56,997 bases of DNA from Candidatus Aminicenantota bacterium (lineage in GTDB: Bacteria > Acidobacteriota > Aminicenantia > Aminicenantales > Saccharicenantaceae), in assembly GCA_026393975.1 (NCBI GenBank), contig JAPKZD010000020.1, forward strand, positions 1 through 56,997, written 5' to 3'. Positions 15,538-29,516 of the stretch are shown one piece after another. The notes below the pieces were generated by a model, which made no database searches, was not told where the DNA came from, and saw only the letters and a list, made by a program, of their open reading frames with translations. Each line of letters opens with the position of its first letter. Position 1 is the first letter of the stretch. Made by a program: the position numbers and the translations under genes.

Positions 15538-17016
15538 ATGGACGAGAAAGACATCACGATACCGGCGTCCGGAGGGCGGACCGCCCCGCCGCGGGGGACC
15601 GAGTCCAAGGCCTTCCAGAAAACCGGCGTCGACCTCCTCATCCGCTTCCACATCGTCGACAAGATCGCCAAGATTTACGACACCAAGAACAACGCCTTCC
15701 AGGAGCAGGGTCAGCTCCTGTTTGGGTCCCTGGCGGCCATGCTGAAGGAAAAAGACGAGGCGTCCTTCCGCGTCCGTCACGGCACCCTGCTCCTCAACGG
15801 CGTGCGCCTGAAGTTCGGCGTGGGGACCTACGGCATTTTCAAGTCCGTCCTGGAGGAGCTCCGGACGCGGGATGTCGAGGCCCTCACATTCCTTCCCGGA
15901 CTCGGCCTGGACGAGCTCTGCCGCTTCATGTCCCTCTTCGCCAAGCGGGACAAGAAAGGCGAAGCCGTCTACGCTCAGCTCGTGGCCGACCTCGACGCCG
16001 CGGGGGTGGAGCACGTCGAGCTCGAGAAGATCTCGGCCGAGGAGATCGCCCAGGGACTCCACAAGAACACGGCTCGGATGTTCTTCCTCAGCATCGTCCA
16101 TCTCAAGGAGTCGTTCGCCCGGGACCAGAGGAAGGAACCCATCAAGATCAACACGACCCGCCGGCTCATGCAGTCGATCTACAACCACATCGTCGAGGAC
16201 GAGGGCTTCGTCCACGGCCTGACGAACATCAAGAACCACGACGAGTACACGCTCAACCATTCAGTCAACGTCTGCTTGCTGGCTACCTCCCTGGGCCGCA
16301 GGCTCGGGCTGAGCCGGTCCGAGATCGTCGACCTGGGCATGGCCGCCTTTTTCCACGACCTCGGCAAAACCGATACCCCGCTCAACATCTTGAACAAACC
16401 GGGCAGGCTGACCGACGCGGAGAGGGTGGTCATGGAACAGCACCCCTTCCACGGCGCCGAGAAGCTCGTCCTGCTCAAGGAGTTCCGTCACCTCCCCCTC
16501 CGGGCCATCCACGTCGCCCTGGAGCATCACATCAAGGAGGACCTCTCCGGCTATCCGCGCTACTTCAAAAAGGACGACATCAACCTCTTCAGCAAGATCG
16601 TCAAGGTCGTCGACGTCTTCGACGCCATCACCACGAAGCGGGTCTACCGGACGACGGACTTCACGAGGGCCGAAGCCATGAGCCTCATGCTCGAGCAGAG
16701 CGGCACAGAGTTCAACCCGGTCATCCTCAAGGCCTTCGTCAACATGATGGGTGTCTTCCCCATCGGTTCGCTCGTCGCCCTGACCTCGGGCGAGGTCGGC
16801 ATCGTCCATGACATCAACCCGGACCCCAAGCTCCTCCTCCGCCCGTCCGTCAAGCTCATCACCGACGCCGAAGGCAACAAAGTCGACGGCGAGATCGTGG
16901 ACCTGGCCGAGCGCGTCCCGGAAACAGGCCGCTTCCGCAGGACGATCGCCGCTCCCCTCGACCCGTCCAAGTACGGGGTCGAGGTCGCCGACTACTTCCT
17001 GGCCCAGGCCCAATAA
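15538..17016 (+). CDS. HD-GYP domain phosphodiesterase-like signalling protein
   Basis: The 492-residue protein has an N-terminal alpha/beta domain (about 20-140) like that of the upstream HEAT protein. An HD-GYP domain follows (about 235-410) with FFHDLGK (H273, D274), HPFHGAEKL, H330-H331 and G338-Y339-P340, then VVDVFDAITTKRVYR. A C-terminal beta-rich segment follows. HD-GYP enzymes hydrolyse cyclic di-GMP. The usual HHExxDGSGYP motif is altered here: the Glu after the two histidines is Ile and the DGS is DLS. The metal-binding His pair and GYP are intact, so activity is possible but unproven. It precedes the rhamnosidase by 19 bases. Confidence 0.85.
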   Translation: MDEKDITIPASGGRTAPPRGTESKAFQKTGVDLLIRFHIVDKIAKIYDTKNNAFQEQGQLLFGSLAAMLKEKDEASFRVRHGTLLLNGVRLKFGVGTYGIFKSVLEELRTRDVEALTFLPGLGLDELCRFMSLFAKRDKKGEAVYAQLVADLDAAGVEHVELEKISAEEIAQGLHKNTARMFFLSIVHLKESFARDQRKEPIKINTTRRLMQSIYNHIVEDEGFVHGLTNIKNHDEYTLNHSVNVCLLATSLGRRLGLSRSEIVDLGMAAFFHDLGKTDTPLNILNKPGRLTDAERVVMEQHPFHGAEKLVLLKEFRHLPLRAIHVALEHHIKEDLSGYPRYFKKDDINLFSKIVKVVDVFDAITTKRVYRTTDFTRAEAMSLMLEQSGTEFNPVILKAFVNMMGVFPIGSLVALTSGEVGIVHDINPDPKLLLRPSVKLITDAEGNKVDGEIVDLAERVPETGRFRRTIAAPLDPSKYGVEVADYFLAQAQ

Positions 17017-17035
17017 CGACTTGATGGGAGGTTCT

Positions 17036-19738
17036 ATGACGCCCCGCCCGCCGGTTCGTCTGCGCTGCGAGTATCTCACCGCGCCGCTCGGCGTGGACAC
17101 GCAGACGCCCCGCTTTTCGTGGCTCGTCGAAAGCCCGGCGCGGGGGGGCCGCCCAAAGGCCTTCCAGGTCCTCGTCTCATCCGCCCGCGAGCTTCTCCAG
17201 AGCGACATCGGTGATTTCTGGGACACGGGGATGATCGACGCGGAACAAACGCCGCACCTCGAGTACCGCGGGGAAGCGCTCCTGAGCTGCGCCCGCTACT
17301 TCTGGAAGGTCCGCTGGTGGGACCGGGACGGAGCCGCCAGCCCCTGGAGCGAGCCGACTTCCTTCGTCACGGGATTCCTCTATGAGGGAGACTGGAAGCC
17401 CAAATGGATCGGTGCGCGTCAGGTCCGGGAGTTCCGGTCCAAGGGCACGGTCCTCCTCGGACACCCCGGCGCCGACGAAACCCAGGCTTGCGCCGTCTAC
17501 TTGAGAAGGGAGTTCGGGCTCAAAGAAAAGGCCTCTCTGGCCATGATCTTCATCTCCGGCCTGGGCCACTACGAACTGCGCCTGAACGGCGCTAAGGTCG
17601 GCTTGAGCGTTCTCGACCCGGGCTGGACGGACTATAGAAAAAAATCCCTCTACGCCTCCTACGACGTGACCGCGCTCGTCCGGGACAAGAACGCAATCGG
17701 CGTCATCCTCGGAAACGGCCGTCACATCAGAAGCTACGGGTACGAAGCCCCCAAGCTCACCTGCCGCATCGAGGTCGAGCATGAGAGCGGCGAGCGGACG
17801 GTCCTTTTCTCGGACGATAACTGGAAGACGTCTTCCGGCCCCCTCCAAGAAAACGGCCTGTATTTCGGCGAACGGCTCGATGCGCGCGTGCTCGTCGACG
17901 GCTGGGACAAGCCGGGTTTCGACGACTCGGCCTGGGACGGGGCCCTGGCCGTCGCCGGATATCCCCTCGTTTCCCAGATGATGCCGCCCGTCCGCGTGAC
18001 CGAACGCCTCGCCCCGAGATCCGTCACCCGTCTCGCCTCCGGCGCCTTCGTCTTCGACTTCGGACAGAATTTCACCGGCTGGGTCCGCCTCCAGATCGAG
18101 GGGCCGAAAGGCACCGAGGTCAGGCTCCGGCACGCCGAGCTCCTCAACGACGACGGGACGCTCAACTTCGGGCCCAATGAAAACGCCGAGGCCACGGACG
18201 TCTACATCCTCAGAGGCGGCGGGCCCGAAATCTACGAGCCGCGCTTCACGTACCACGGTTTCCGTTACGCCGAGATGACCGGGTTCCCGGGCGAGCCCGG
18301 GCCCGGCGCTCTCGAGGGATGTTTCGCCCACTCCGACGTCGAGAGAACCGGGACGTTCAACTGTTCGAACGAACTCCTCAACCGCGTCCACCGGAACATC
18401 GTCTGGGGCCAGCTTTCCAACCTCATGAGCATCCCGACCGACTGCCCCCAACGGGACGAACGTCACGGCTGGCTCGGCGACGCCCACCTTTCGGCCGAGG
18501 AGGCCGTCTTCAACTTCGAAATGGCGGCTTTTTACGCCAAATTCCTCGACGACATCCGGCTGGCCCAGAGAGACGACGGGAGCCTGCCCGACGTCGTCCC
18601 CCCTTACCTCCCCCGCCTCTACCCCGCCGACCCGGCCTGGAGCTCGGCCTACCCGACGCTTGTCTGGCTTCTCTGGGAGCACTACGCGGACGGCCGGGTC
18701 GTCGCCAAGCACTACGCCACCCTTAAGAAATACATCGACTTCCTCGGCCAGAACGCCGACCGGCTGATCGTCCGGAAGCTCGGCAAGTACGGCGACTGGT
18801 GTCCGCCCGGAAGCATCGTCCCCAAGAAAACGCCGGTAGACTTGACCTCAACCTGGTACTACTATCACGATGTCCTCATCGTCGCGCGCCTGGCCACGGT
18901 CCTCGGCCGCAACGAAGATGTCCTGCAGTACACGAAGCTCGCCGAGTCCATCGCAGCCGCTTTCAACGACACGTTCCTCGGCGAGACGCAGTACGCCGCG
19001 ATCCGCGTCAGTCCTGTCGACAACTACCCCAACCAGACCTCCAACGCCCTGCCGCTTTACTTGAACATGGTCCCGGCCGAGAAAAAGGACAAGATCCTGG
19101 CCAGCCTCCTCCAGAGCGTCATCCGCCAGCAGGATTACCATGTCGACACGGGAATCCTGGGGACGCGCTACATCCTGGACGTCCTGACCGACAACGACCA
19201 GGCCGAGGTCGCCTATCGCATGGCGACCCAGAAGAGCTACCCGGGCTGGGGTTACATGCTCGCCGAGGGCGCCACGACGCTCTGGGAAAGATGGGAGAAA
19301 CTCACCGGCCACGCTATGAATTCCCAGAACCACATCATGCTGGGCAGCATCGACGCCTGGTTCTACCGGGTGATCGCCGGCCTGAGCCCGGTCCTCCCGG
19401 GCTGGAAGGCCGTCCGGGTCCGGCCGCACATCCTTGGCGACCTCGCCTTCGCCGAAGCGAAGCTAGAAACCGTCGCCGGGATGGTTCGCTCGGCGTGGGA
19501 CAAAGCCGAAAATTCGTTTTCCATGGAAGTTTCTATCCCGGTCGGCGCCGTCGGGGAGGTCCATGTCCCCCTGCTCTGGCACGGAGCCCATATCTTCGAA
19601 TCCGGAAAGCTCCTCTGGAGGGCGGGACACGCCGTCGACTCCGCCCTCGAGGTGGTCCTGGCCGGCGACGACGGGAAACGCGCCGTCTTCAAGACAGGGA
19701 GCGGCGACTACAGATTCGAGCTGAAGAAGAGCGGGTGA
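17036..19738 (+). CDS. Alpha-L-rhamnosidase, glycoside hydrolase family 78
   Basis: The 900-residue enzyme is the right size for GH78. It has N-terminal Ig-like and beta-sandwich domains (about 5-320), an (alpha/alpha)6 catalytic barrel (about 420-800) and a C-terminal beta domain. The general-acid motif DCPQRDERHGWLGDA includes E475, and the general base candidate is E751 in GATTLWERW. The enzyme releases L-rhamnose from glycosides, which rhaA and rhaB would then process. No signal peptide is visible, so it is probably cytoplasmic and acts on imported oligosaccharides. I use the ATG at 17036 because GGGAGG lies just before it; another ATG at 17024 overlaps that site. Confidence 0.92.
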   Translation: MTPRPPVRLRCEYLTAPLGVDTQTPRFSWLVESPARGGRPKAFQVLVSSARELLQSDIGDFWDTGMIDAEQTPHLEYRGEALLSCARYFWKVRWWDRDGAASPWSEPTSFVTGFLYEGDWKPKWIGARQVREFRSKGTVLLGHPGADETQACAVYLRREFGLKEKASLAMIFISGLGHYELRLNGAKVGLSVLDPGWTDYRKKSLYASYDVTALVRDKNAIGVILGNGRHIRSYGYEAPKLTCRIEVEHESGERTVLFSDDNWKTSSGPLQENGLYFGERLDARVLVDGWDKPGFDDSAWDGALAVAGYPLVSQMMPPVRVTERLAPRSVTRLASGAFVFDFGQNFTGWVRLQIEGPKGTEVRLRHAELLNDDGTLNFGPNENAEATDVYILRGGGPEIYEPRFTYHGFRYAEMTGFPGEPGPGALEGCFAHSDVERTGTFNCSNELLNRVHRNIVWGQLSNLMSIPTDCPQRDERHGWLGDAHLSAEEAVFNFEMAAFYAKFLDDIRLAQRDDGSLPDVVPPYLPRLYPADPAWSSAYPTLVWLLWEHYADGRVVAKHYATLKKYIDFLGQNADRLIVRKLGKYGDWCPPGSIVPKKTPVDLTSTWYYYHDVLIVARLATVLGRNEDVLQYTKLAESIAAAFNDTFLGETQYAAIRVSPVDNYPNQTSNALPLYLNMVPAEKKDKILASLLQSVIRQQDYHVDTGILGTRYILDVLTDNDQAEVAYRMATQKSYPGWGYMLAEGATTLWERWEKLTGHAMNSQNHIMLGSIDAWFYRVIAGLSPVLPGWKAVRVRPHILGDLAFAEAKLETVAGMVRSAWDKAENSFSMEVSIPVGAVGEVHVPLLWHGAHIFESGKLLWRAGHAVDSALEVVLAGDDGKRAVFKTGSGDYRFELKKSG

Positions 19739-19753: not shown

Positions 19754-21154
19754 TCAGTAGAGATATTTCTTGAAGAGCCGGGCCGTCTCCCCGTAGGCCT
19801 CGATCGTCCGGTCGATATCCTTGTCGCCGTGCGCGACCGAGACGGAGCCGCCGCCGTGGACGGCATTGACGCCGTTGACAAGCAGGGCGAGTTTCAGGAT
19901 CTCCTCCCTCAACGCGACATTCGTCCGCCGGTCGTCGTATATCTCCTCGGGGTTTTTGTACGTCAAGCCCGCCTCGCGGGGGAAATGGACCATGAAGAGA
20001 GAGCTCCCCGGGACGACGTCGTTCCCGTAACCGGTGCACCGGGCCGGAACGCCCTCATCGGCGAAGGCGCGCTCGATCGCCCGGCGGAGTTTCTCCCCCG
20101 AGCGGGCGAGCTTGGGGTAGATCGTCGAAGCGCCGCGGACGAGGTGGCCGAGCATGATCAACCCGGCTTTCATGTATTCCGAGTGCGCGGAGAACGTCCC
20201 CCCCTCGAAAAGGACTCTGCCGCCGGGGCCCCGGGCGCGGCCGCATCCCTCCATGTCCTCACGGGAACCGACGACCGCAGACACGGCATGTCCCCCGCCG
20301 ATGATCTTCCCGAAGGCCGTCAGGTCCGGCCGGACGCCGTAGAGCGTCTGGACGCCCGACGGGCAGAAGCGGAACCCGGAGATGATCTCGTCGAAGACGA
20401 GCAGGATACCCTTTTGCGCGGTCAGTCGCCGGGCCAGCTCGATGTATTCTTTCGAAGCCGGAAGGAAACCGCCCACGCCGAGGAACGGCTCGACGATGAA
20501 GCAGGCGATCCGGTCGCCATTTTCCTTGATGATCCTTTGGAGGTCATCGCAATCGTTGAACCGCGTCACCAGCGTCCGCCGGACGATGTCGTCGAGCAGG
20601 CCGGCCGACTCCCGGCCTTCAAAACCCACGTCGGCATGGAACTTGACACCTTTGAGGAGGTAGGGCGATGAACCGTGCCAGCCGCCGCCGATCTTCAGGA
20701 CGTGGTCCCGGCCCGTCAGCCCCTGGGCGAGCATGACGGCGTACATCGTGGCCAGCGTCCCGGAAGTGGTGAAACGGACCTTGGCCTCCTTCCCTCCGAG
20801 CTTCCGGACGAGCGTCTCGGCCAGCTCGATCTGGTGGCTTGCTTCGAAACCCGTGTGGAGGGCGCCGCGGCCGAGGCAGGCCGCCATCTCACGGCGGATG
20901 AGCTTGGGGTTGTGGCCGAGGACATTGGCGTAATGCCCCTGCCAATAGTCGATATAGGTGTTGCCGTCGACGTCCCGGACGACCGGCCCCTCGGCAGCCG
21001 CGGCGAAAAAGGGATAGGGCCGCCACAGCCGGTTCGAATGGCTTCCCCCCTCGACCATGACCTTTTCGGCCCGGTGGAAGACCGCCCGGCTCTTGGCCGT
21101 TTTTTTCCTGTACTCCTTGACCAGATGGCCGCGGAGCCTGTCCATTCCTGTCAT
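19754..21154 (-). CDS. Class III aminotransferase, glutamate-1-semialdehyde aminomutase-like
   Basis: The protein is 466 residues from the chosen start. Class III PLP-fold landmarks are GNTYIDYWQGHYANVLGHN, the PLP-phosphate region FTTSGTLATMYAV, the aspartate motif LLVFDEIISGFRF, and the Schiff-base lysine in LTAFGKIIGGGHAVSAV. It resembles HemL, but HemL is shorter (about 430), and here it stands alone without haem genes, so a sugar or amino-acid aminotransferase or mutase role is equally possible. An upstream ATG at 21178 lies inside the predicted -10 box; the ATGs at 21154 or 21145 are therefore better starts. It is divergent from the phosphatase-superfamily operon. Confidence 0.82.
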   Translation of the reverse strand: MTGMDRLRGHLVKEYRKKTAKSRAVFHRAEKVMVEGGSHSNRLWRPYPFFAAAAEGPVVRDVDGNTYIDYWQGHYANVLGHNPKLIRREMAACLGRGALHTGFEASHQIELAETLVRKLGGKEAKVRFTTSGTLATMYAVMLAQGLTGRDHVLKIGGGWHGSSPYLLKGVKFHADVGFEGRESAGLLDDIVRRTLVTRFNDCDDLQRIIKENGDRIACFIVEPFLGVGGFLPASKEYIELARRLTAQKGILLVFDEIISGFRFCPSGVQTLYGVRPDLTAFGKIIGGGHAVSAVVGSREDMEGCGRARGPGGRVLFEGGTFSAHSEYMKAGLIMLGHLVRGASTIYPKLARSGEKLRRAIERAFADEGVPARCTGYGNDVVPGSSLFMVHFPREAGLTYKNPEEIYDDRRTNVALREEILKLALLVNGVNAVHGGGSVSVAHGDKDIDRTIEAYGETARLFKKYLY

Positions 21155-21176
21155 GCGCCCTCTCTCAAGAGCCTCC

Positions 21177-21205
21177 ATTTAACAACTGCGGCGGGGCAAA
21201 GTCAA
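21177..21205 (-). promoter_or_regulatory. Promoter of the class III aminotransferase
   Basis: The minus strand reads TTGACT (21205-21200), a 17-bp spacer and TTAAAT (21182-21177). The -10 box overlaps the ATG at 21178, so transcription would start at about 21170 and the usable start codon lies further in. Confidence 0.55.
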
Positions 21206-21215
21206 ATTCCCTTGT

Positions 21216-21244
21216 TTGACCGCCCCCCCGGCTTGGGGTAGAAT
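21216..21244 (+). promoter_or_regulatory. Promoter of the phosphatase-superfamily operon
   Basis: TTGACC (21216-21221), a 17-bp spacer and TAGAAT (21239-21244) give a predicted leader of about 25 nt. No good ribosome site precedes the ATG at 21275. It is divergent from the aminotransferase promoter. Confidence 0.6.
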
Positions 21245-21274
21245 GATTGTTTCAAGGTCGAAAAAAACCTGAGC

Positions 21275-22567
21275 ATGGCCGTCCTGAACTGCAAGAAAAC
21301 AAACCGGGCCTGCGTCATCGGCCTGGACGGCGTCCCCCACGGCATGGTCGTCGAGCTGGCCCGCCGGGGCGTCATGTCGACGATGGCCCGGCTCATGGAC
21401 CTCGGCCACCTTCACAAAATGAAGGCCAGCCTCCCCGAAATCTCGGCCGTGTCCTGGACGAACTTCATGACCGGAACCAATTCGGGGACGCACGGCATCT
21501 TCGGGTTCACCGACTTCAAGCCCCATTCCTACGACATCCGTTTCCCCAATTCCCTCGACCTCAAGGCACCGACCCTCTGGGACAAGCTCGGCGCCAAGGG
21601 CAAGAGAAGTATCGTCATCAACCAGCCCTCGACCTACCCCGCCCGTAAGATCGAGGGCGTCCTCATCTCCGGCTTCGTCGCCCTCGAACTGGCCAAGGCG
21701 GTCTGGCCGATGACCTACCGGGCCACGCTCGAGCAGATGGGCTACCAGATCGACGTCGACACGACCAAGGTCCGGGAGAGCCCGGAGGTCCTCTGGCAGG
21801 AGCTGAGCAAGACCATGGCCGGCCGCCAGAAGGCCCTCAATCTCCTCTGGGAGGAAGAGTGGGACTACTTCGAGTTCATCGTCACCGGGACCGACCGGCT
21901 CCACCACTTCCTCTGGAAGGCCTACGAGGACCCCGACCATCCGTCCCATCAGGCCTTCCTCGATTACTACCGCCACATCGACCGGCTCATCGGCAAGACC
22001 GTAGCCGCGTACCGCAAGCTAACCAACTCCTACGACGGGTTCTACATCCTCTCCGACCACGGCTTCACCGGCATCGTCCAGGAGGTCTACCTCAATGTCT
22101 GGCTGGAACGGAACGGCTACCTGAAGTTCGCCAGGCCCGAACCGGAGGGCCTCGGGGATATCGCGGCCCGGACGCAGGCCTTCGCCCTGGATCCCAACAG
22201 GATCTACCTCAACCTGAAAACCAAGTTCCCCAGGGGGACCGTCGAACGGCCGGCCAAGAAAGCCCTCAAGGAGGAGATCGCCGGCAAGCTCGAGAAGCTC
22301 GAATACCAGGGCCGCAAGGTCGTCCGCAAGGTCTTCTTCGCCGAGGACGTCTATTCCGGACCGCTCGCCGTCAAGGGACCCGACCTCATCATCGTGGGCG
22401 AGCCCGGCTTCGACATGAAGGGCTCTGTCAAGAAGAAGGAGATCTTCGGCCGCTCGAGCCTCCAGGGCATGCATACCTGGGACGACGCCTTCTGTTGGGC
22501 CTCGGACGATCTTGGAGAGGACCTGGCCATCGAGGACGTGGCCCCGTTCATTCTGAAGAATTTTTGA
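21275..22567 (+). CDS. Alkaline-phosphatase-superfamily phosphodiesterase-like protein, cytoplasmic (AP1)
   Basis: The 430-residue protein has the type I phosphodiesterase / nucleotide pyrophosphatase fold. The first metal Asp is D18 in VIGLDG, the nucleophile region is EISAVSWTNFMTG, metal ligands lie in TDRLHHF and LSDHGF, and a late His is in GMHTWDD. No signal peptide or membrane segment is seen, so it should be cytoplasmic, unlike its two paralogs downstream. The family cleaves phosphodiesters or transfers phospho-groups; the substrate is unknown. It is the first gene of the operon, and its stop is one base from the next start. Confidence 0.85.
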   Translation: MAVLNCKKTNRACVIGLDGVPHGMVVELARRGVMSTMARLMDLGHLHKMKASLPEISAVSWTNFMTGTNSGTHGIFGFTDFKPHSYDIRFPNSLDLKAPTLWDKLGAKGKRSIVINQPSTYPARKIEGVLISGFVALELAKAVWPMTYRATLEQMGYQIDVDTTKVRESPEVLWQELSKTMAGRQKALNLLWEEEWDYFEFIVTGTDRLHHFLWKAYEDPDHPSHQAFLDYYRHIDRLIGKTVAAYRKLTNSYDGFYILSDHGFTGIVQEVYLNVWLERNGYLKFARPEPEGLGDIAARTQAFALDPNRIYLNLKTKFPRGTVERPAKKALKEEIAGKLEKLEYQGRKVVRKVFFAEDVYSGPLAVKGPDLIIVGEPGFDMKGSVKKKEIFGRSSLQGMHTWDDAFCWASDDLGEDLAIEDVAPFILKNF

Positions 22568-22568
22568 T

Positions 22569-24695
22569 ATGAAGAAAACGGTCGCTCTTTTCGTGGCTGG
22601 AGCCGTGCTCGCCCTCGCCGCTCCTCTCGCCGCCTACATCGGCCCCGGTGCCGGATTCGCCTTCCTTTCGTCGTTCCTCGTCCTTTTCCTGACGTTCCTC
22701 ATGGCCCTATTCTCATTCCTCTCCTGGCCCTTCCGCTTTCTCTGGAAGGCGGCCCGCGGCCAGCGGGCCTACAAAAAAAGCCCCATCCATCGCCTGATCG
22801 TCCTCGGCCTCGACGGCATGGAGCCGACGCTGGCCGAGAAATTCATGGCCGAAGGCAAACTGCCGAACCTCGCCCGCCTGAAAAAAGAAGGAACGTACGC
22901 CCGGCTGAAGACGACGACGCCGGCCATATCGCCCGTCGCCTGGTCATCGTTCATGACCGGTTCCGAGCCCTCGAAGCACAACATCTTCGACTTCCTCAGC
23001 CGTGACCCCCGGACCTACCTTCCTGACCTGTCCTCGGCCCGGATCGGGAAACCCAAGCGGACCGTCGCCTTAGGAAAATACCTCATCCCCATCTCCAAGC
23101 CCGAGATCAGAGGCATGCGAAAGAGTGTGCCGTTCTGGAAGATCCTCGGCGAGAAGGGCATCTTCAGCACCGTTCTCCGGGTCCCCATCACCTTCCCCCC
23201 CGAAAAATTCAAGGGGCACCTCCTTTCCGGCATGTGCACCCCCGACCTCAAGGGCAGTCAGGGGACGTTCGCGTTTTTCACCGAGGACGCGGACAAAGTC
23301 CGCAAACACGAGGGCGGCGTCGCCGTCCTCCTCGCCCGGGAAGGACACCGTATCCGGACGGAGATTTCGGGCCCCGAAAACACCCTGCTCAAGAAGCCCG
23401 AGGAGATCCGCCTGCCTTTGGCCATCACCATCGACGAAGAAGCGAAGGGGGCCTGGCTCGAGATCCAGGGGCAGAAGAAATTCTTTCTGAAAGAAAAGAC
23501 ATTCAGCCCATGGGTCCAGGTCGCATTCCGGCCCGGGCTGGGGATGAAGATCCGGGCCATCTGTAAGTTCTATATCGTCGCGATCGAACCCAAGTTCGAA
23601 ATGTACATGACGCCCCTCAACATCGACCCGGAAAAGCCGGCCCTGCCGATTTCCCACCCGTTCATCTACTCCGTCTACCTGTCGAAACTGCTCGGCCGTT
23701 TCATCACGCTCGGCGAGGCGAACGACACCTGGGCCCTCAACGAAGGGGCCCTCGACGAGAAAGCCTTCCTCGAGCTGACCTACGCCAACCACGCCGAGTG
23801 GGAAGCGATGTTCTGGAACGCTCTGTCCAAGACCCCCAGGGGCATGGTGGCCATCGTCTTCGAGACGACCGACAGCATCCAGCACATGTTTTTCCGTTAC
23901 CTCGACAAGGCCCATCCGGCGCTCAAGGCCGCCCCCGCCCGGATGAGCGCCGCCGTCATCGAGGAGCTCTATAAGAAAATGGACGATCTCGTCGGCCGCG
24001 TCGCGGCCACCCTCGACGAAAAAAGCGTCCTCTTCGTCATGTCGGACCACGGCTTCAAGTCCTTCCGGCGGGGCGTCAACCTCAACTCCTGGCTCCATCA
24101 GAACGGTTACCTGACCCTGGTCGAGGGCAAAAAGGTAAGCGCCGAGTGGTTCAAGGACGTCGATTGGAACAGGACGAAAGCCTACGGCCTCGGCCTGGGC
24201 GGCATCTATCTCAACCTGAAAGGCCGCGAGGCCCGCGGGGTCGTCGCCCCGGGCGCCGAGTCCGGCGCCTTGAAGGCCGAGCTCATCCGCAAGCTCACCG
24301 CCCTCAAGGACGGCGCGAACGGTCCGGCGGCGGTCACCAACGTCTACGACCGCGATGCCGTCTACTCCGGCCCGTACAAGGAGAACGCGCCGGACCTCAT
24401 CATCGGCTACAACGAAGGATACCGGGCGTCCTGGGACGGCGTCACCGGCATCGTCAACGCCATCGTCATCGACGACAACACCAAGGCCTGGAGCGGGGAC
24501 CACTGCATCGACCCGGCCCTCGTCCCCGGCGTCCTGTTCTCGAACCTCAAGATCAAGACGGCCAGTCCGTCGATCATGGACATCGCCCCGACGGCCCTGG
24601 AGCTTTTCGGGCTGACCCCGCCGGCCCACATGGACGGCCGCGGCCTCATCGACATCGCCGGTCTCCCCGGCACGAAACAGAGGAAGCCATCATGA
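22569..24695 (+). CDS. Alkaline-phosphatase-superfamily protein, membrane-anchored (AP2)
   Basis: The 708-residue protein starts with two hydrophobic segments (about 4-24 and 28-58) containing YIGPGAG, then basic residues and the catalytic domain. Motifs are GLDG (D82), the nucleophile region AISPVAWSSFMTG, TDSIQHMFFR, MSDHGFKSFRRG and the late SGDH. An extra domain of about 150 residues (about 235-380) sits between the nucleophile and the second metal site. AP3 carries a matching insert, so AP2 and AP3 are closer to each other than to AP1. The substrate is unknown. The end overlaps the AP3 start by four bases (ATGA). Confidence 0.83.
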   Translation: MKKTVALFVAGAVLALAAPLAAYIGPGAGFAFLSSFLVLFLTFLMALFSFLSWPFRFLWKAARGQRAYKKSPIHRLIVLGLDGMEPTLAEKFMAEGKLPNLARLKKEGTYARLKTTTPAISPVAWSSFMTGSEPSKHNIFDFLSRDPRTYLPDLSSARIGKPKRTVALGKYLIPISKPEIRGMRKSVPFWKILGEKGIFSTVLRVPITFPPEKFKGHLLSGMCTPDLKGSQGTFAFFTEDADKVRKHEGGVAVLLAREGHRIRTEISGPENTLLKKPEEIRLPLAITIDEEAKGAWLEIQGQKKFFLKEKTFSPWVQVAFRPGLGMKIRAICKFYIVAIEPKFEMYMTPLNIDPEKPALPISHPFIYSVYLSKLLGRFITLGEANDTWALNEGALDEKAFLELTYANHAEWEAMFWNALSKTPRGMVAIVFETTDSIQHMFFRYLDKAHPALKAAPARMSAAVIEELYKKMDDLVGRVAATLDEKSVLFVMSDHGFKSFRRGVNLNSWLHQNGYLTLVEGKKVSAEWFKDVDWNRTKAYGLGLGGIYLNLKGREARGVVAPGAESGALKAELIRKLTALKDGANGPAAVTNVYDRDAVYSGPYKENAPDLIIGYNEGYRASWDGVTGIVNAIVIDDNTKAWSGDHCIDPALVPGVLFSNLKIKTASPSIMDIAPTALELFGLTPPAHMDGRGLIDIAGLPGTKQRKPS

Positions 24696-26713
24696 GCAAT
24701 CAAAAACGGGCCTCCCTCAGCCGCAGGGAATTCATGAAGGCCGGTATCGCCGCCTCTGCCGCTCTCGGCCTGGGCGGCGCCGCGCGGTTCACGCCCAAAG
24801 TCTACGGCCGGGCCCGGGCCGCAAAGAAAATGATCATCCTCGGCATGGACGGAATGGACCACGGCCTCATGACGGGCTGGCTCGCCGAGGGCCGCTTCCC
24901 GACGTTCCGGAAACTTCTCCGCGAGGGCGGGGATTTCCGGCCGCTCCGGACGAGCCTGCCGCCGCAGAGCCCGGTCGCCTGGTCGAACTTCATCACCGGG
25001 ATGGACCCCGGCGGCCACGCCATCTTCGATTTCATCCACCGAAATCCGAAGGCCACTGATCCGGTGAGTTTCTTTACCTTCTCCGCGGCGGAATCCCTGG
25101 GCGCCAAGAAGACGATCCGGATCGGCAAGACCATCATTCCCCTTTCGGGGGGAGAGGTGCGGAACCTCCGCAAAGGGAAAGCGTTCTGGCAGGTCCTCGA
25201 GGAGGCCGGCGTCCCGGCGACGGTCTTCAAGATCCCCTCCAACTACCCCCCGGTCCCCTCCCGGCAGAGGACGCTTTCGGGAATGAACACGCCCGACCTT
25301 AAGGGCTCCTACGGCATATTCAACTACTACACCAACGAAACGATGGCCGTCATCCAAGAGGCCGGCGGCGGCGGCCGCGTCCACGACATCTTTGTCGTCG
25401 GCAACCGCGTCGAAGCCGTGCTCCCCGGGCCGACGAACAGCTTCCGGACGGACGCCCCGGAGACGATGGTCCCCTTCCAAGTGTTCCTCGACCCGGCAAA
25501 CGCGGCTGCCAAGATCGTCCTCCAGGGCCAGGAGTTTATCCTCAAGGAGAAGGAGTGGAGCGGCTGGAAGAGGGTCCATTTCAACCTCATCCCGACCCAG
25601 AGCGTTAGCGGCATCTGCCTCTTCTACCTCAAGGAAGTCCGTCCCAAATTCAAGCTCTACATCTCGCCCGTCCACATCGACCCGGCCCGGCCCGCCCTGC
25701 CCATCTCGACGCCCGAGTCTTACGCCAAAGAGCTCGAGCGGCATTTCGGTCCCTTTTTCACAAAGGGCCTGCCGGCCGACACGAGCGCTCTTGTCAACGG
25801 TGTGCTCGACGAAGAGGAGTTCCTGGAGCTCGACGACATGGTCCTCGAGGAGAGCATGGCCATGCTGGAGTACGAGCTGGCCCGGTTCGACGAAGGCCTC
25901 CTCTTCTATTATTTCTCGAGCACCGACCAGCGCCAGCATATGTTCTGGCGGCTCACCGACCCGACGCATCCCGCCTACGACGCCAAACTCGCCGCCCGCT
26001 ACGGGGGCGTCATCGCCGGAATCTACGGCGAGATGGACAAGGCCCTGGATATGGCCCTGCGGAAGGCCGACAAGGACACGGTCGTGATCGTCATGTCGGA
26101 CCACGGCTTCAACGCCTTCCGCCGCGGCTTCAACCTGAACACCTGGCTCCTTCAGGCGGGTTACCATCGGCTCTCGAAGCCCTGGAAGCAGGCGGAATCC
26201 GCCTTTTTCGACAACACCGACTGGTCGAAGACCCGGGCCTACGGCGCCGGGCTCAACGGGCTTTACATCAACGAGAGAGGTCGCGAACGCGACGGGCTCG
26301 TCGCCGCGGGAGCGGACAAAGACAACCTCGTTCGGGAAATCGCCCAAAAGCTCGAGGCCCTGACCGACCCCAAGACGGGCGAGCGAGCCATTCTCAAGGC
26401 CTTTGTCGCCAAGGACGTCTATCGCGGCCCGAACCTTGAAATGGCCCCTGACATCGTCCTCGGGTTCAACCGCGGCTACCGCATCTCGTGGCAGTCGCCC
26501 CTGGGCGGGTTCCCCAAGGAGGTCTTAGAGGACAACACCCAGAAATGGAGCGGCGACCACATGTCCTCACCGGAGGTCCTGCCCGGCATCGTCATCGCCA
26601 ACCGGAAAATCGCGGCCGAGGCCCCGGCCCTTTACGACCTGACGGTTACGGCCCTCAATATATTCGGCGTCGAAAAACCCAAAGAGATGATCGGAGAGAA
26701 CGTCCTCGAATAA
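24692..26713 (+). CDS. Alkaline-phosphatase-superfamily protein, Tat-exported (AP3)
   Basis: The 673-residue protein has a twin-arginine signal (SRREFMK near residue 10, then a hydrophobic Ala/Gly stretch), which predicts export in folded, metal-loaded form. Catalytic motifs are GMDG (D53), PQSPVAWSNFITG, TDQRQHMFWR, MSDHGFNAFRRG and SGDHMSS. It shares with AP2 the inserted domain and the FRRGFNLNTWL-like segment. The start is fixed by AGAGGAAG before an ATG that overlaps the AP2 stop. A periplasmic phosphodiesterase or phosphotransferase role is likely; the substrate is unknown. Confidence 0.87.
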   Translation: MSNQKRASLSRREFMKAGIAASAALGLGGAARFTPKVYGRARAAKKMIILGMDGMDHGLMTGWLAEGRFPTFRKLLREGGDFRPLRTSLPPQSPVAWSNFITGMDPGGHAIFDFIHRNPKATDPVSFFTFSAAESLGAKKTIRIGKTIIPLSGGEVRNLRKGKAFWQVLEEAGVPATVFKIPSNYPPVPSRQRTLSGMNTPDLKGSYGIFNYYTNETMAVIQEAGGGGRVHDIFVVGNRVEAVLPGPTNSFRTDAPETMVPFQVFLDPANAAAKIVLQGQEFILKEKEWSGWKRVHFNLIPTQSVSGICLFYLKEVRPKFKLYISPVHIDPARPALPISTPESYAKELERHFGPFFTKGLPADTSALVNGVLDEEEFLELDDMVLEESMAMLEYELARFDEGLLFYYFSSTDQRQHMFWRLTDPTHPAYDAKLAARYGGVIAGIYGEMDKALDMALRKADKDTVVIVMSDHGFNAFRRGFNLNTWLLQAGYHRLSKPWKQAESAFFDNTDWSKTRAYGAGLNGLYINERGRERDGLVAAGADKDNLVREIAQKLEALTDPKTGERAILKAFVAKDVYRGPNLEMAPDIVLGFNRGYRISWQSPLGGFPKEVLEDNTQKWSGDHMSSPEVLPGIVIANRKIAAEAPALYDLTVTALNIFGVEKPKEMIGENVLE

Positions 26714-26736
26714 CGACCGGGAAAGGAACAACGGAC

Positions 26737-26928
26737 ATGCCCAGCGCGAAAGTCAAGATCGACAAGGCCCTCCTCGACAAGATCAGGAAGTATGCCGAGA
26801 TGTCGGGCTACTCCTCGGTCGAGGAGTTCATCACCCATTGCCTCGAAAAAGAGGTCGCCAAAATCGAGGACTCGGACTCGGAAGAGGAGATCAAGAAGAA
26901 GCTCAAGGGGCTGGGCTACATTTCCTGA
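26737..26928 (+). CDS. Small ribbon-helix-helix-like protein
   Basis: The 63-residue protein begins with a short basic strand (AKVKIDKAL), then two helices (LLDKIRKYAEMSG and SVEEFITHCLEKEV) and an acidic tail. This beta-alpha-alpha pattern is that of CopG/Arc-type ribbon-helix-helix DNA-binding proteins. The acidic tail (EDSDSEEE) is unusual. It sits between AP3 and the membrane protein with gaps of 23 and 5 bases, so it could autoregulate the operon or be a non-DNA-binding adaptor. Confidence 0.65.
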   Translation: MPSAKVKIDKALLDKIRKYAEMSGYSSVEEFITHCLEKEVAKIEDSDSEEEIKKKLKGLGYIS

Positions 26929-26933
26929 GGGCC

Positions 26934-27761
26934 ATGGGAATCGTCAACCTCGTCTTCGGCTGGGTCGTCGACATCATCCTTCTGCCTTTCCAGGGAGCGT
27001 CCCCCTGGTTCGGGATGGCAGCCGTATCCCTCCTGACGTCCCTACTGATGCTCGAGGTCTATAAGCTCACTTCGAACCAGGCGGCGATCCGCAGGGCCAA
27101 GGACAGGATCAAGGCCCACCTCCTCGAGCTCCGGCTGTTCAAGGACAGCATGCGCGTCACGCTTCGGGCCCAGGCGGCCATCCTCAAGGCCAATCTGAGC
27201 TACCTTGCCGCGAACCTCAAGCCTCTGCTTGTCATGATCGTTCCCCTTGTCCTCATCCTGGCCCAGCTCAGCCTCTGGTTCGACCGGGCGCCCCTCGGAC
27301 CGGGTGAAGAGACGCTGGTCAAGGTCGGCCTCGAGGAGAAAGCGGACCCTGTATCGCTCCCGATGGAACTCGAGACTTCTCCCGGCCTGGAGATAACTTC
27401 CCCGGCCGTCCGCATCCCGGACGAGCACGAGGTCGCCTGGCGGTTCAAGGCGACCGCTGCGGGCCCTGGCCGTCTGACCCTGCGGGTCGGCGGCCTGATT
27501 CTCGTGAAATCCGTGGCCGTCGGAGGGAAACCCCTGACCAAGGTGTCCTCACTGGCCTCCCGTGGGTCGCTCTGGAAACAGGCCCTCTACCCCGGGGAAC
27601 GGGCCCTCCCGGCCGGAACACCGGTTCGTTCGATAGAGATCCTCTATCCGGCGAAAAGTCTGAGCGTCTTCGGCCATCGCGTCCATTGGCTCGTCGCCTA
27701 TCTCATCCTGTCCATCGCCTTCGGTTTCGCCTTCAAAGGCGTCTTCAAGGTCGAAATCTAA
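26934..27761 (+). CDS. Oxa1/EMC3/DUF106-like integral membrane protein
   Basis: The 275-residue protein starts with hydrophobic segments (about 3-19 and 25-45). A positively charged helical hairpin follows (about 48-95, QAAIRRAKDRIKAHLLELRLFK), then a transmembrane segment (about 97-115), a beta-rich soluble region (about 117-240) and a last transmembrane helix (about 248-270). The membrane helix, basic coiled-coil, membrane helix order is that of the Oxa1 superfamily (YidC, EMC3, archaeal DUF106), which inserts membrane proteins. The beta-rich insert before the last helix is not usual. I assign it by topology only. The start ATG lies 5 bases after the small protein's stop. Confidence 0.5.
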   Translation: MGIVNLVFGWVVDIILLPFQGASPWFGMAAVSLLTSLLMLEVYKLTSNQAAIRRAKDRIKAHLLELRLFKDSMRVTLRAQAAILKANLSYLAANLKPLLVMIVPLVLILAQLSLWFDRAPLGPGEETLVKVGLEEKADPVSLPMELETSPGLEITSPAVRIPDEHEVAWRFKATAAGPGRLTLRVGGLILVKSVAVGGKPLTKVSSLASRGSLWKQALYPGERALPAGTPVRSIEILYPAKSLSVFGHRVHWLVAYLILSIAFGFAFKGVFKVEI

Positions 27762-27785
27762 TTCGCTGCGCTTGAAAGGTTTTCC

Positions 27786-28898
27786 ATGAACATCGATATT
27801 TTTAAGATGGAACGCATGCAGTCCCTCTGGGAAAACGTCGTCGACTACAACCTGTCCGAAAGCGGCGTCCATCCCCTGAACCTCAAGGAGCTCCTGACCC
27901 CCGCCGAGCTCGACTCCCTGGCCGAAGTCGAGATCGGCTACACCCAGACGAACGGCACGGCCGGCCTGCGCGAGCGGATCGCAAGTCTCTACCCGGGAGT
28001 CGGGATCGAGCAGATCCTGACTACGGCCGGCTCGTCGGAGGCCAATTTCCTGCTCATGTGGAGCCTCATCGAGCCCGGCGACGAAGTCCTCTTCGAACTC
28101 CCGAACTACATGCAGATGGGCGGGCTTCTCCGCGCCTTCGGCGCCAAGGTCAAGTCCTTCTATCTCCGCGAGAGCCTGGACTGGCAGCCCGACCTCGACG
28201 AGATGAAAAAGCTGGTCACCGCGAAAACCAAACTCATCGTCCTGACCAATCCCAACAACCCGACCGGGTCCGTCCTCGACCCGGAGGTCATGAAGGGGAT
28301 CGTCGACCTCGCGGCGGGCGTAGGAGCCTGGATCCTCGCCGACGAAGTCTACCAGGGGGCCGAACTTTCTGGCGTCCAGACGCCGAGCTTCTGGGGGGCC
28401 TGGGAGAAGACGCTCGTCGTCAACGGGCTGTCCAAGGCCTACGGCCTGCCGGGCCTGAGGATCGGCTGGATCGTCGGCCCGGAAGAGGTCGTCAAGAAGA
28501 CATGGCCCTATCACGATTACACGACGATCTCCCCCTCCGCCCTGAGCGACCGGCTGGCCACGCTCACCCTGGCCCCGACGACGCGGGAGCGGGTCCTCCA
28601 GAGGACGCGGGGCATCCTCAACGCCAACTTCCCCGTCCTCGAAACGTGGCTCAAGGACCACGAGGGACTATTCAGTTTCCGGCCGCCCCGGGCCGGGGCC
28701 ATCTGTTTCGCCCGATACGACCTGAAAGTCAACTCGACCGAACTCGTCGAGCGGCTGATCAGGGAAAAAAGCGTCCTCCTCGTCCCCGGCGACCACTTCG
28801 AAATGGACGGCTACCTGCGCTTCGGCTACGGCCCCGAGAGAGGTTATCTCCTGCGGGCCCTGGGGCGGGTCGAAGAAATACTTAAAAAAATCGGCTAA
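27786..28898 (+). CDS. Class I/II PLP-dependent aminotransferase
   Basis: The 370-residue fold-type I enzyme shows TTAGSSEANFLLMW for PLP phosphate, the NPNNPTG motif, the aspartate in ILADEVYQG, the Schiff-base lysine in NGLSKAYGLPGLRIGW, and the carboxylate-binding arginine in GYLRFGYG. Features resemble the subgroup that includes capreomycidine synthase and related amino-acid-modifying enzymes, but the substrate is not determined. It sits 24 bases after the Oxa1-like gene with an AAAGG ribosome site, so it is likely part of the same operon. Confidence 0.88.
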   Translation: MNIDIFKMERMQSLWENVVDYNLSESGVHPLNLKELLTPAELDSLAEVEIGYTQTNGTAGLRERIASLYPGVGIEQILTTAGSSEANFLLMWSLIEPGDEVLFELPNYMQMGGLLRAFGAKVKSFYLRESLDWQPDLDEMKKLVTAKTKLIVLTNPNNPTGSVLDPEVMKGIVDLAAGVGAWILADEVYQGAELSGVQTPSFWGAWEKTLVVNGLSKAYGLPGLRIGWIVGPEEVVKKTWPYHDYTTISPSALSDRLATLTLAPTTRERVLQRTRGILNANFPVLETWLKDHEGLFSFRPPRAGAICFARYDLKVNSTELVERLIREKSVLLVPGDHFEMDGYLRFGYGPERGYLLRALGRVEEILKKIG

Positions 28899-28967
28899 AC
28901 GTGGTAGAATCTTGAATCCGTTCCCTTGGGGAATGAGTTATAAGCCATAGCACCAAAGGAGGCTACT

Positions 28968-29516
28968 ATGAACAGAGTCCGAACAATCGTCCCCCTCGTC
29001 ATTCTTTTCATCCTGGTCGTCGCCGGCGTTTCTTACGCCCAGCAGGCGTCCAAGATCGCCATCATCAATTCCCAGAAGGCATTCGAAACCTCTGTGGAAG
29101 GGAAGAGAGTCTTGGGCCAGATGCAGGACCGCGAGACCAAGATCAAGACGGACATCCAGAAGCAGGACGACTCCATCCGTCTGCTCGAGAACAAGCTGAG
29201 CACGGGCCGGCTGACCATGACCAACGAAGCCCTCCTGGGCATCCAGGCCGACATCGACAAGAAGACGACGGAACGGAAGAGGTACGAAGAGGACGCCACG
29301 CGCGACGCCCAGCAGTTCTCCGGCAACCTCGTCCAGAAGATCCGCGCCGAGATGGTCACGATCATCGAGAACCTGGCCAAGGAGCGGGGCCTCGAGCTCG
29401 TCCTCGACGTGGCCCAGAGCGGTGTCGTCACCTTCAGTCCGACGGTCGATATCACCGATGAAATTATCCGCCGTTACGACCAGAGCAAGGCGGCCACCCC
29501 TCCCGTCAAGAAGTAA
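28968..29516 (+). CDS. OmpH/Skp-family periplasmic chaperone
   Basis: The 182-residue protein has a Sec signal peptide (about 1-23, SYAQ), then KIAIINSQKAFET and a long charged coiled coil (about 45-140). It ends in a conserved head segment (RGLELVLDVAQSGVVTFSPTVDITDEIIRRY), which is the OmpH/Skp pattern. Skp carries unfolded outer-membrane proteins across the periplasm. It starts 69 bases after the aminotransferase with a strong AAAGGAGG site and may have its own weak promoter. Its presence suggests a diderm cell. Confidence 0.9.
   Translation: MNRVRTIVPLVILFILVVAGVSYAQQASKIAIINSQKAFETSVEGKRVLGQMQDRETKIKTDIQKQDDSIRLLENKLSTGRLTMTNEALLGIQADIDKKTTERKRYEEDATRDAQQFSGNLVQKIRAEMVTIIENLAKERGLELVLDVAQSGVVTFSPTVDITDEIIRRYDQSKAATPPVKK

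Follow-up and report, generated by a model that had tools for sequence, protein, structure and literature searches.

The window, i.e., the whole stretch of DNA analyzed here, comprises positions 1–56,997 of JAPKZD010000020.1 (assembly GCA_026393975.1, Candidatus Aminicenantota bacterium) and contains a run of seven genes, the first five of which encode three enzymes of the alkaline phosphatase (AP) superfamily (AP1, AP2, and AP3), a ribbon-helix-helix-like (RHH) microprotein, and an EMC3-like membrane protein (EMC3L). The seven genes are real, yet they are not one functional unit; the core is AP2-AP3-RHH-EMC3L, a near-obligatory set and, about as surely as sequence can make it, a real conserved system. 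It is proposed, with a probability of about one half, that AP1-AP2-AP3-RHH-EMC3L constitutes the inner-membrane module of an envelope-sulfation pathway, and we consider it rather likely that the core serves an envelope process linked to activated sulfate, 3′-phosphoadenosine-5′-phosphosulfate (PAPS). The module was not found described among the open-licence PMC papers listed by the literature searches. If the proposal is right, this widespread but unnamed set of genes would offer a route, open to testing, by which largely uncultured phyla make sulfated envelope molecules, and would assign an EMC3-type protein to a specific biochemical pathway.

Conservation of the AP2-AP3-RHH-EMC3L core

A scan with the AP2 alignment confirmed at least 586 relatives, the best 80 of which were made into loci. 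Dereplication at 90% identity reduced these AP2-chosen loci to 61 and the whole collection from 121 to 89; leaving out loci with short flanks kept 31 of the 61 and 55 of the 89. Because loci L031–L070 were all picked for carrying EMC3L, the unbiased counts for the core are those obtained for the 31 non-redundant loci with AP2 as the sole selection criterion, where EMC3L and RHH are present in 31/31 and AP3 in 30/31. The second line of evidence comes from the 297 genomes of the phylum, for which the counts of EMC3L, AP1, AP2, AP4, APS (adenosine-5′-phosphosulfate) kinase, and sulfotransferase were read by eye from match tables. EMC3L is present in 77 of these genomes (45 of 167 genera); both AP2 and EMC3L occur in 73, AP2 only in two (G069 and G156), and EMC3L only in four (G048, G090, G172, and G272). 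In G034, G072, G129, and G280, AP2 is present on a contig other than that of EMC3L, which argues that the tie between the two is not merely one of local order.

The order AP2-AP3-RHH-EMC3L recurs in the 40 neighborhoods of EMC3L, in some of which an overlapping open reading frame (ORF) masks AP3 or RHH, and in two (L062 and L063) no AP2 is displayed beside EMC3L. The order of the first five genes of the run recurs far above chance. A sequence-only reading of this DNA had pointed to a combination of AP paralogs with an Oxa1/EMC3-like and a small RHH-like protein, and had named absence of the gene order from relatives as a ground for giving up the idea; no such absence was observed for genes one to five, and both locus and genome counts support a conserved unit. 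The full core was also found in records labeled Planctomycetota, Omnitrophota, Armatimonadetes, Poribacteria, Calditrichota, Desulfobacterales, Bacteroidota, and Gemmatimonadetes, although such labels of metagenome-assembled records can be wrong, and the order AP3-RHH-EMC3L-AP2 was seen in some Acidobacteriales and Terriglobia records. The last two genes of the run, encoding an aminotransferase (AT) and an OmpH/Skp-like protein, were dropped as parts of the system, being present in only 11/89 and 9/89 dereplicated loci, mostly near relatives.

On the AP2 tree, covering 88 of the 89 loci, rows from other families of the phylum (L035, L036, L037, L038, and L047) nest among those of the window's class, and some of the nested rows carry attached CysD and CysN. 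This nesting suggests that the module was transferred as a unit.

Enzymes, membrane protein, and microprotein

All three AP proteins of the window score above the gathering threshold of PF01663, and AP2 and AP3 share 40% identity over 648 alignment columns. Motifs of the metal ligands and the nucleophile were searched as rough string patterns over the dereplicated loci: [ST]PVAW was found in 87/88 AP2 and [ST]P[VI]AW in 80/80 AP3, SDHG in 88/88 AP2, 80/80 AP3, and 28/29 AP1, and SAVSW in 15/29 AP1, with the pattern unmatched in 13. Looser patterns for the remaining ligands miss at most 14 of 80 AP3 and 5 of 88 AP2. Residues D82, D435, H439, D493, H494, and H645 of AP2 are invariant in 31 rows, and S121 is conserved in at least 90%. 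AP2 and AP3 are paralogs of the nucleotide pyrophosphatase/phosphodiesterase (NPP) type within the superfamily, with catalytic motifs retained. The structure model of AP2 (pLDDT 83) is aligned by VIA with ENPP5 over 337 residues (Z 27.2, rmsd 3.8) and matched by Foldseek to a PafA mutant (E 2.8e-10) and to Xac NPP (E 8e-10); a beta-rich stretch lies at model residues ~143–347, as delimited from the strand list and not by an alignment.

The membrane side of the two paralogs was approached through their N-termini (the counts for N-termini, YIGPGAG, and CxPxR in AP2, AP3, and sulfatase-like proteins are from non-dereplicated sequences). The N-terminal membrane hairpin of AP2 surrounds the motif YIGPGAG, found in 112/119 AP2 proteins, in which the mean net charge past the second hydrophobic stretch is +7 (minimum +4) and that of the loop −0.3. 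Since the positive-inside rule relates charge to the cytoplasmic side, this pattern places the AP2 catalytic domain, as a prediction, on the cytoplasmic face. The Tat (twin-arginine) signal of the window's AP3 scores 21.5 bits in Pfam, under the cut-off of 22.7, and 16.9 with TAT_signal_seq of NCBIfam, over the cut-off of 16.7; the AP3 N-terminus is twin-arginine, lipoprotein-like, or otherwise hydrophobic in 99/103 sequences. AP3 is probably exported, so that the two paralogs are predicted to be located on different sides of the membrane. AP1 has no hydrophobic N-terminus and is probably cytoplasmic.

The EMC3L model (mean pLDDT 95) consists of a first helix, a transmembrane (TM) segment, a coiled coil running into the second TM, a beta domain, and the last TM (helices 24–46, 49–68 with 73–116, and 252–267), and it thus has three TM helices with a coiled coil between the first two. 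The beta domain is immunoglobulin (Ig)-like, with a best Z of 7.0, a score that common folds reach too, and is predicted from the sequence to lie outside the cell membrane. In profile comparison, the window copy stays below the cut-off of PF01956 (EMC3_TMCO1), which is matched at E ≤ 0.1 by 15/60 EMC3L homologs, the best of them (L107; E 3.8e-7, 30.5 bits) above the cut-off. Foldseek and VIA searches with whole EMC3L gave Ig-like and other beta folds and no Oxa1-type chain among the matches listed, an absence that carries no weight, as the TM part was not searched alone.

The microprotein, called RHH-like in the sequence-only reading, scores 17.8 bits with RHH_1 (PF01402), below the cut-off of 20.5. 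RHH2, a second RHH-like protein found near PAPS-synthesis genes, scores 20.0 bits in L112; that of the window genome has no RHH_1 match at E ≤ 0.1 and is RHH-like by appearance and an in-house profile (20 bits). The C-terminus is GLGY[ILMV]x in 78/81 dereplicated loci; in the remaining three, the tail is in another frame, as read in L052 of the same neighborhood (L074), or the gene is at a contig end (L076 and L077). A similar tail, L-x-x-LGY-I/L/V, ends the second RHH-type protein (LKALGYID in the window genome), five proteins labeled APS kinase, and DUF2061-type proteins. Among sulfatase-like proteins, 22/61 end in an LGY-type tail and 45/61 have the motif anywhere. Other neighborhood genes match the loose LGY pattern in 33/958 cases, nearly all away from the end; it was not found in AP1 (0/33) or AP2 (0/120), and the three matches among 110 AP3 are not C-terminal. 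We infer that the LGY(I/L) tail is a docking peptide; if the proposal is right, the shared tail would offer an easy way to search for more proteins of the pathway. The ends of CysD were dropped as special: the 10 complete CysD rows comprise six with LGYM and four with -KGYM or -EGYF, and ordinary CysD has a similar C-terminal end. DUF2061-type membrane proteins with an LGY tail lie near sulfate-activation or core genes at L137:11906-12238, L112:14387-14683, and L130:12925-13224; the Pfam match is that of the L112 protein, and the other two were assigned by look.

The link to activated sulfate and competing explanations

Recurrent neighbors of the core are CysN(C), CysD, APS kinase, ATP sulfurylase, a sulfotransferase of ~200 residues, and an inositol-phosphatase-family gene, read as CysQ. 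The CysNC label is that of an in-house profile, which also catches ATP sulfurylase; the CysQ, sulfotransferase, and sulfatase labels likewise come from in-house profiles, with Pfam checks on single members, and the figures for APS kinase adjacency are lower bounds. Genes for PAPS synthesis or a sulfotransferase are found in the flanks of the core in 17/31 AP2-chosen loci and in 43/89 of all loci. APS kinase (E ≤ 0.001) is present in 72/77 genomes with EMC3L compared to 110/220 others, some of these matches being weak; its distance from EMC3L is no more than 10 kb in at least 12 of the 77. A strong sulfotransferase match (E < 1e-65) was obtained for 36/77 genomes with EMC3L compared to 9/220 others, and in 27 of the 36 the gene lies within 10 kb of EMC3L. 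The sulfotransferase is single-copy in 48/50 matched genomes, and by a rough estimate rather than a test, well under one such adjacency is expected by chance.

The window genome itself has on contig 3 a locus of adjacent genes for RHH2, ATP sulfurylase (Sat), AP4 (PF01663), and APS kinase (L155:7048-10448), followed by those for a nucleotide-sugar epimerase, up to which the locus spans L155:7048-11393, and a UDP-sugar dehydrogenase. AP4 is found within 1 kb of APS kinase in at least 30 of the 38 genomes with AP4. The two loci of the window genome probably serve one pathway, because their parts are united elsewhere: RHH2-AP4-APS kinase-AP1-AP2-AP3-RHH-EMC3L is one run on one strand in L119 (Omnitrophota record), and in L112 (Armatimonadetes record) the parts form two convergent arms, with Sat and a DUF2061 protein in addition. 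In the window genome (95% complete), neither PF01507 (PAPS reductase/CysD) nor the sulfotransferase families PF00685 and PF13469, the only ones searched, were matched. PAPS is thus probably made there without a recognized consumer, which makes AP1–AP3 candidates for its use; if the proposal is right, it suggests a destination for PAPS where no sulfotransferase or PAPS reductase of the searched families is found.

AP1 is present in 51/297 genomes and lies within 3 kb of APS kinase in at least 20 of the 51. Among the 89 core loci, AP1 occurs in 29, the sulfotransferase in 33, and both in none (Fisher 4.7e-8, uncorrected for descent). The AP2 tree has 8 changes between the AP1 and sulfotransferase states; on average 3.7 of 7 independent pairs go the opposite way and none ever go the same way, and L036 (sulfotransferase) and L037 (AP1) adjoin on the tree within one family. 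The pattern is compatible with replacement of one by the other, without being proof of it.

In the proposed pathway, ATP sulfurylase and APS kinase, with AP4 and RHH2, would make PAPS as the supply of sulfo groups, and a sulfotransferase would put these on a lipid- or phospho-linked glycan precursor. The latter step could be performed by the dedicated classical enzyme in many lineages, AP1 being a candidate for it in that of the window. AP2 and AP3, each on its own face of the membrane, would process the sulfated, phosphodiester-linked precursor or transfer it, with EMC3L as a membrane scaffold or insertase holding the AP enzymes and the LGYI tail of the RHH microprotein as the docking peptide.

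Several data weigh against this proposal. The exclusion of AP1 and sulfotransferase is not significant in the phylogeny-aware test (median p 0.125), 27/89 loci have neither, and the 77 genomes with EMC3L include 4 with both and 9 with neither. AP1 occurs without EMC3L in 15/51 genomes. The PAPS genes are not adjacent to the core in the window genome, and in 14/31 AP2-chosen loci the available flanking DNA contains neither a PAPS gene nor one for a sulfotransferase. A strong dedicated sulfotransferase was not found in any of the 31 EMC3L-containing genomes of the window's class, three genomes of which have a weak relative (E ~1e-41 to 1e-43). The window EMC3L reaches 13.3 bits with EMC3_TMCO1 at a cut-off of 27.1, and its comparison with YidC gave an hhalign probability of 0.2 with a weak, narrow template of 9 closely related YidC rows, on which kinship with YidC was dropped. 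AP1, AP2, and AP3 remain candidate sulfo- or phosphotransferases. Finally, the sulfatase-like neighbors are no evidence for desulfation, as they lack the formylglycine (FGly) motif at the position expected for it.

The last point concerns proteins found in 28/89 loci by the in-house profile, with PF00884 confirmed where scanned. FGly sulfatases carry a CxPxR motif; among 45 sulfatase-profile matches, C-x-[PA]-x-R occurs in two, once at residue 543 of 577 and once at residue 49 of 841, neither being the expected nucleophile position, and the neighbors were dropped as true FGly sulfatases. A run of sulfatase-like AP proteins, some LGY-tailed and some split ORFs, lies directly upstream of AP2 at L112:328-8892. 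At L059:3468-7670 and L099:3967-8333, downstream of or inside the core, sulfatase-like proteins have five to seven hydrophobic stretches in the first 240 residues and no CxPxR; by these features, they may be membrane-bound transferases.

A bolder but testable explanation, considered rather improbable, is that sulfo transfer is carried out by the AP enzymes. In its full form, held just as tentatively, AP1, AP2, and AP3 would be a bacterial AP-superfamily sulfotransferase system taking the place of the classical PAPS-using enzyme, arranged around a new, Ig-bearing EMC3-type protein and held by an LGY(I/L) docking tail common to the two RHH microproteins, some APS kinases, DUF2061-type proteins, and sulfatase-like AP enzymes of the same neighborhoods. 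If true, envelope precursors in several bacterial phyla would be sulfated by a membrane machine working on both faces. Precedent for the proposed module is given by the Halobacterium AP-superfamily proteins Agl30 and Agl31, which were shown to sulfate a dolichol-linked glycan (PMC11980604); if the module proposal is right, the 2025 finding of alkaline-phosphatase-type sulfotransferases in Halobacterium would be extended to bacteria.

It is less probable that the AP enzymes are clean-up phosphodiesterases hydrolyzing pyrophosphate (PPi), APS, PAPS, or 3′-phosphoadenosine-5′-phosphate (PAP), with EMC3L and RHH organizing or regulating them and no new sulfo transfer. AP4 and AP1 do adjoin APS kinase, the fold of AP2 is that of the nucleotide pyrophosphatase family, and a phosphodiesterase of a Pyrococcus cluster is speculated to degrade PPi (PMC8268124); however, an exported AP3 and a conserved membrane hairpin of AP2 would be odd for cytosolic nucleotide clean-up, and a CysQ-like gene is already present in several clusters. 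EMC3L as a dedicated insertase for AP2 and related proteins, which would make the module mainly a unit of membrane-protein biogenesis, agrees with the EMC3_TMCO1 similarity, the coiled coil and three TM helices of the model, and the close co-occurrence of EMC3L and AP2, but it leaves the PAPS and sulfotransferase neighbors unexplained and is regarded as distinctly improbable.

The sequence-only reading had supposed that the operon may make or remodel an envelope glycan or lipid that is phospho-linked and amino-bearing; AT would then supply the amino group. AP-superfamily phosphotransferases acting on the envelope are well known, and AT starts 24 bases after EMC3L. An envelope role stays plausible with AP2 membrane-anchored and AP3 exported, but an amino-bearing product is now very unlikely: AT is rare among the loci, the genes that recur beside the unit are those for PAPS synthesis and the sulfotransferase, and the AT score with PRK07324 of NCBIfam (314.8 bits, below the cut-off of 476) indicates no sugar specificity. 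Equally remote is a catabolic module removing sulfate or phosphate from sulfated compounds that are scavenged from envelopes or the environment, which the sulfatase-like neighbors would suit, but PAPS synthesis and a PAPS-type sulfotransferase indicate addition and not removal, and these neighbors lack the FGly motif where it is expected.

Gene layout in the window and comparison with known systems

The ORFs listed in Table 1 are separated by gaps of 1, −4, 23, 5, 24, and 69 bases, in agreement with the seven genes on one strand and the gaps of −4 to 69 bases described earlier. Three promoter-like −35/−10 sites were counted in the region, compared to a mean of 1.2 (sd 0.9) in shuffled sequence. 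The boxes of the good promoter reported before recur upstream of AP1 with small changes in three congeneric loci (L031, L032, and L033) and, less exactly kept, in L034 (genome G296). Weaker promoter-like sites precede AT (27772) and OmpH (28882). A second OmpH/Skp copy of the window genome is located at G000:C5:43056-43478. Upstream of the operon, a class III aminotransferase gene (19754–21178, minus strand), glutamate-1-semialdehyde-aminomutase-like with scores below cut-offs, diverges from it, and its cluster recurs in 8/41 compared loci; an alpha-L-rhamnosidase with five matching rhamnosidase domains is encoded at 16808–19738.

Table 1. Features of the operon in the window.
Feature	Position	Strand	Support
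Sigma-70-like promoter, TTGACC-17-TAGAAT	21216..21244	+	boxes kept in relatives
AP1, NPP-type enzyme	21275..22567	+	PF01663 E 6e-34, 118.5 bits (cut-off 23)
AP2, NPP-type enzyme, membrane-anchored (predicted)	22569..24695	+	PF01663 E 1e-35, 124.2 bits (cut-off 23)
AP3, AP2 paralog, probably exported (Tat)	24692..26713	+	PF01663 E 6e-28, 98.8 bits (cut-off 23)
RHH-like microprotein, 63 aa, C-terminus KKLKGLGYIS	26737..26928	+	RHH_1 below cut-off
EMC3L, EMC3/TMCO1 (Oxa1)-like membrane protein	26934..27761	+	EMC3_TMCO1 below cut-off
Class I/II aminotransferase (AT), local neighbor	27786..28898	+	Aminotran_1_2 E 7e-46
OmpH/Skp-like protein, local neighbor	28968..29516	+	OmpH PF03938 E 3e-21

When compared to ENPP/NPP phosphodiesterases (PF01663), AP2 has a like fold and like metal-site motifs. 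NPPs use Thr as the residue of the nucleophile motif, whereas the [ST]PVAW motif of the window-type enzymes has Ser and sometimes Thr; AP2 also adds the beta-rich stretch and the membrane hairpin. EMC3L and EMC3/TMCO1 (PF01956) have in common the TM–coiled coil–TM–TM layout, but in EMC3L the Ig-like beta domain separates the second TM from the third; in PMC5898192, PF01956 proteins of archaea are regarded as homologs of YidC. The contig 3 locus resembles the PAPS cluster of hyperthermophilic archaea (PYCH_17520-17560 of Pyrococcus yayanosii), given as copG–ATP sulfurylase–DHH pApase–type I phosphodiesterase–APS kinase (PMC8268124), and it agrees with that cluster in gene content and order except for the DHH gene, which it lacks; the AP2-AP3-RHH-EMC3L core is absent from that description of the cluster. 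A functional parallel to the proposed envelope-sulfation module is that of Agl30 and Agl31 of Halobacterium salinarum. These are described as sulfatase-like, unlike the NPP-like window proteins (PF01663, ENPP fold), a comparison made by description only; they are AP-superfamily proteins, one membrane-associated and one soluble, like the candidate enzymes of the window.

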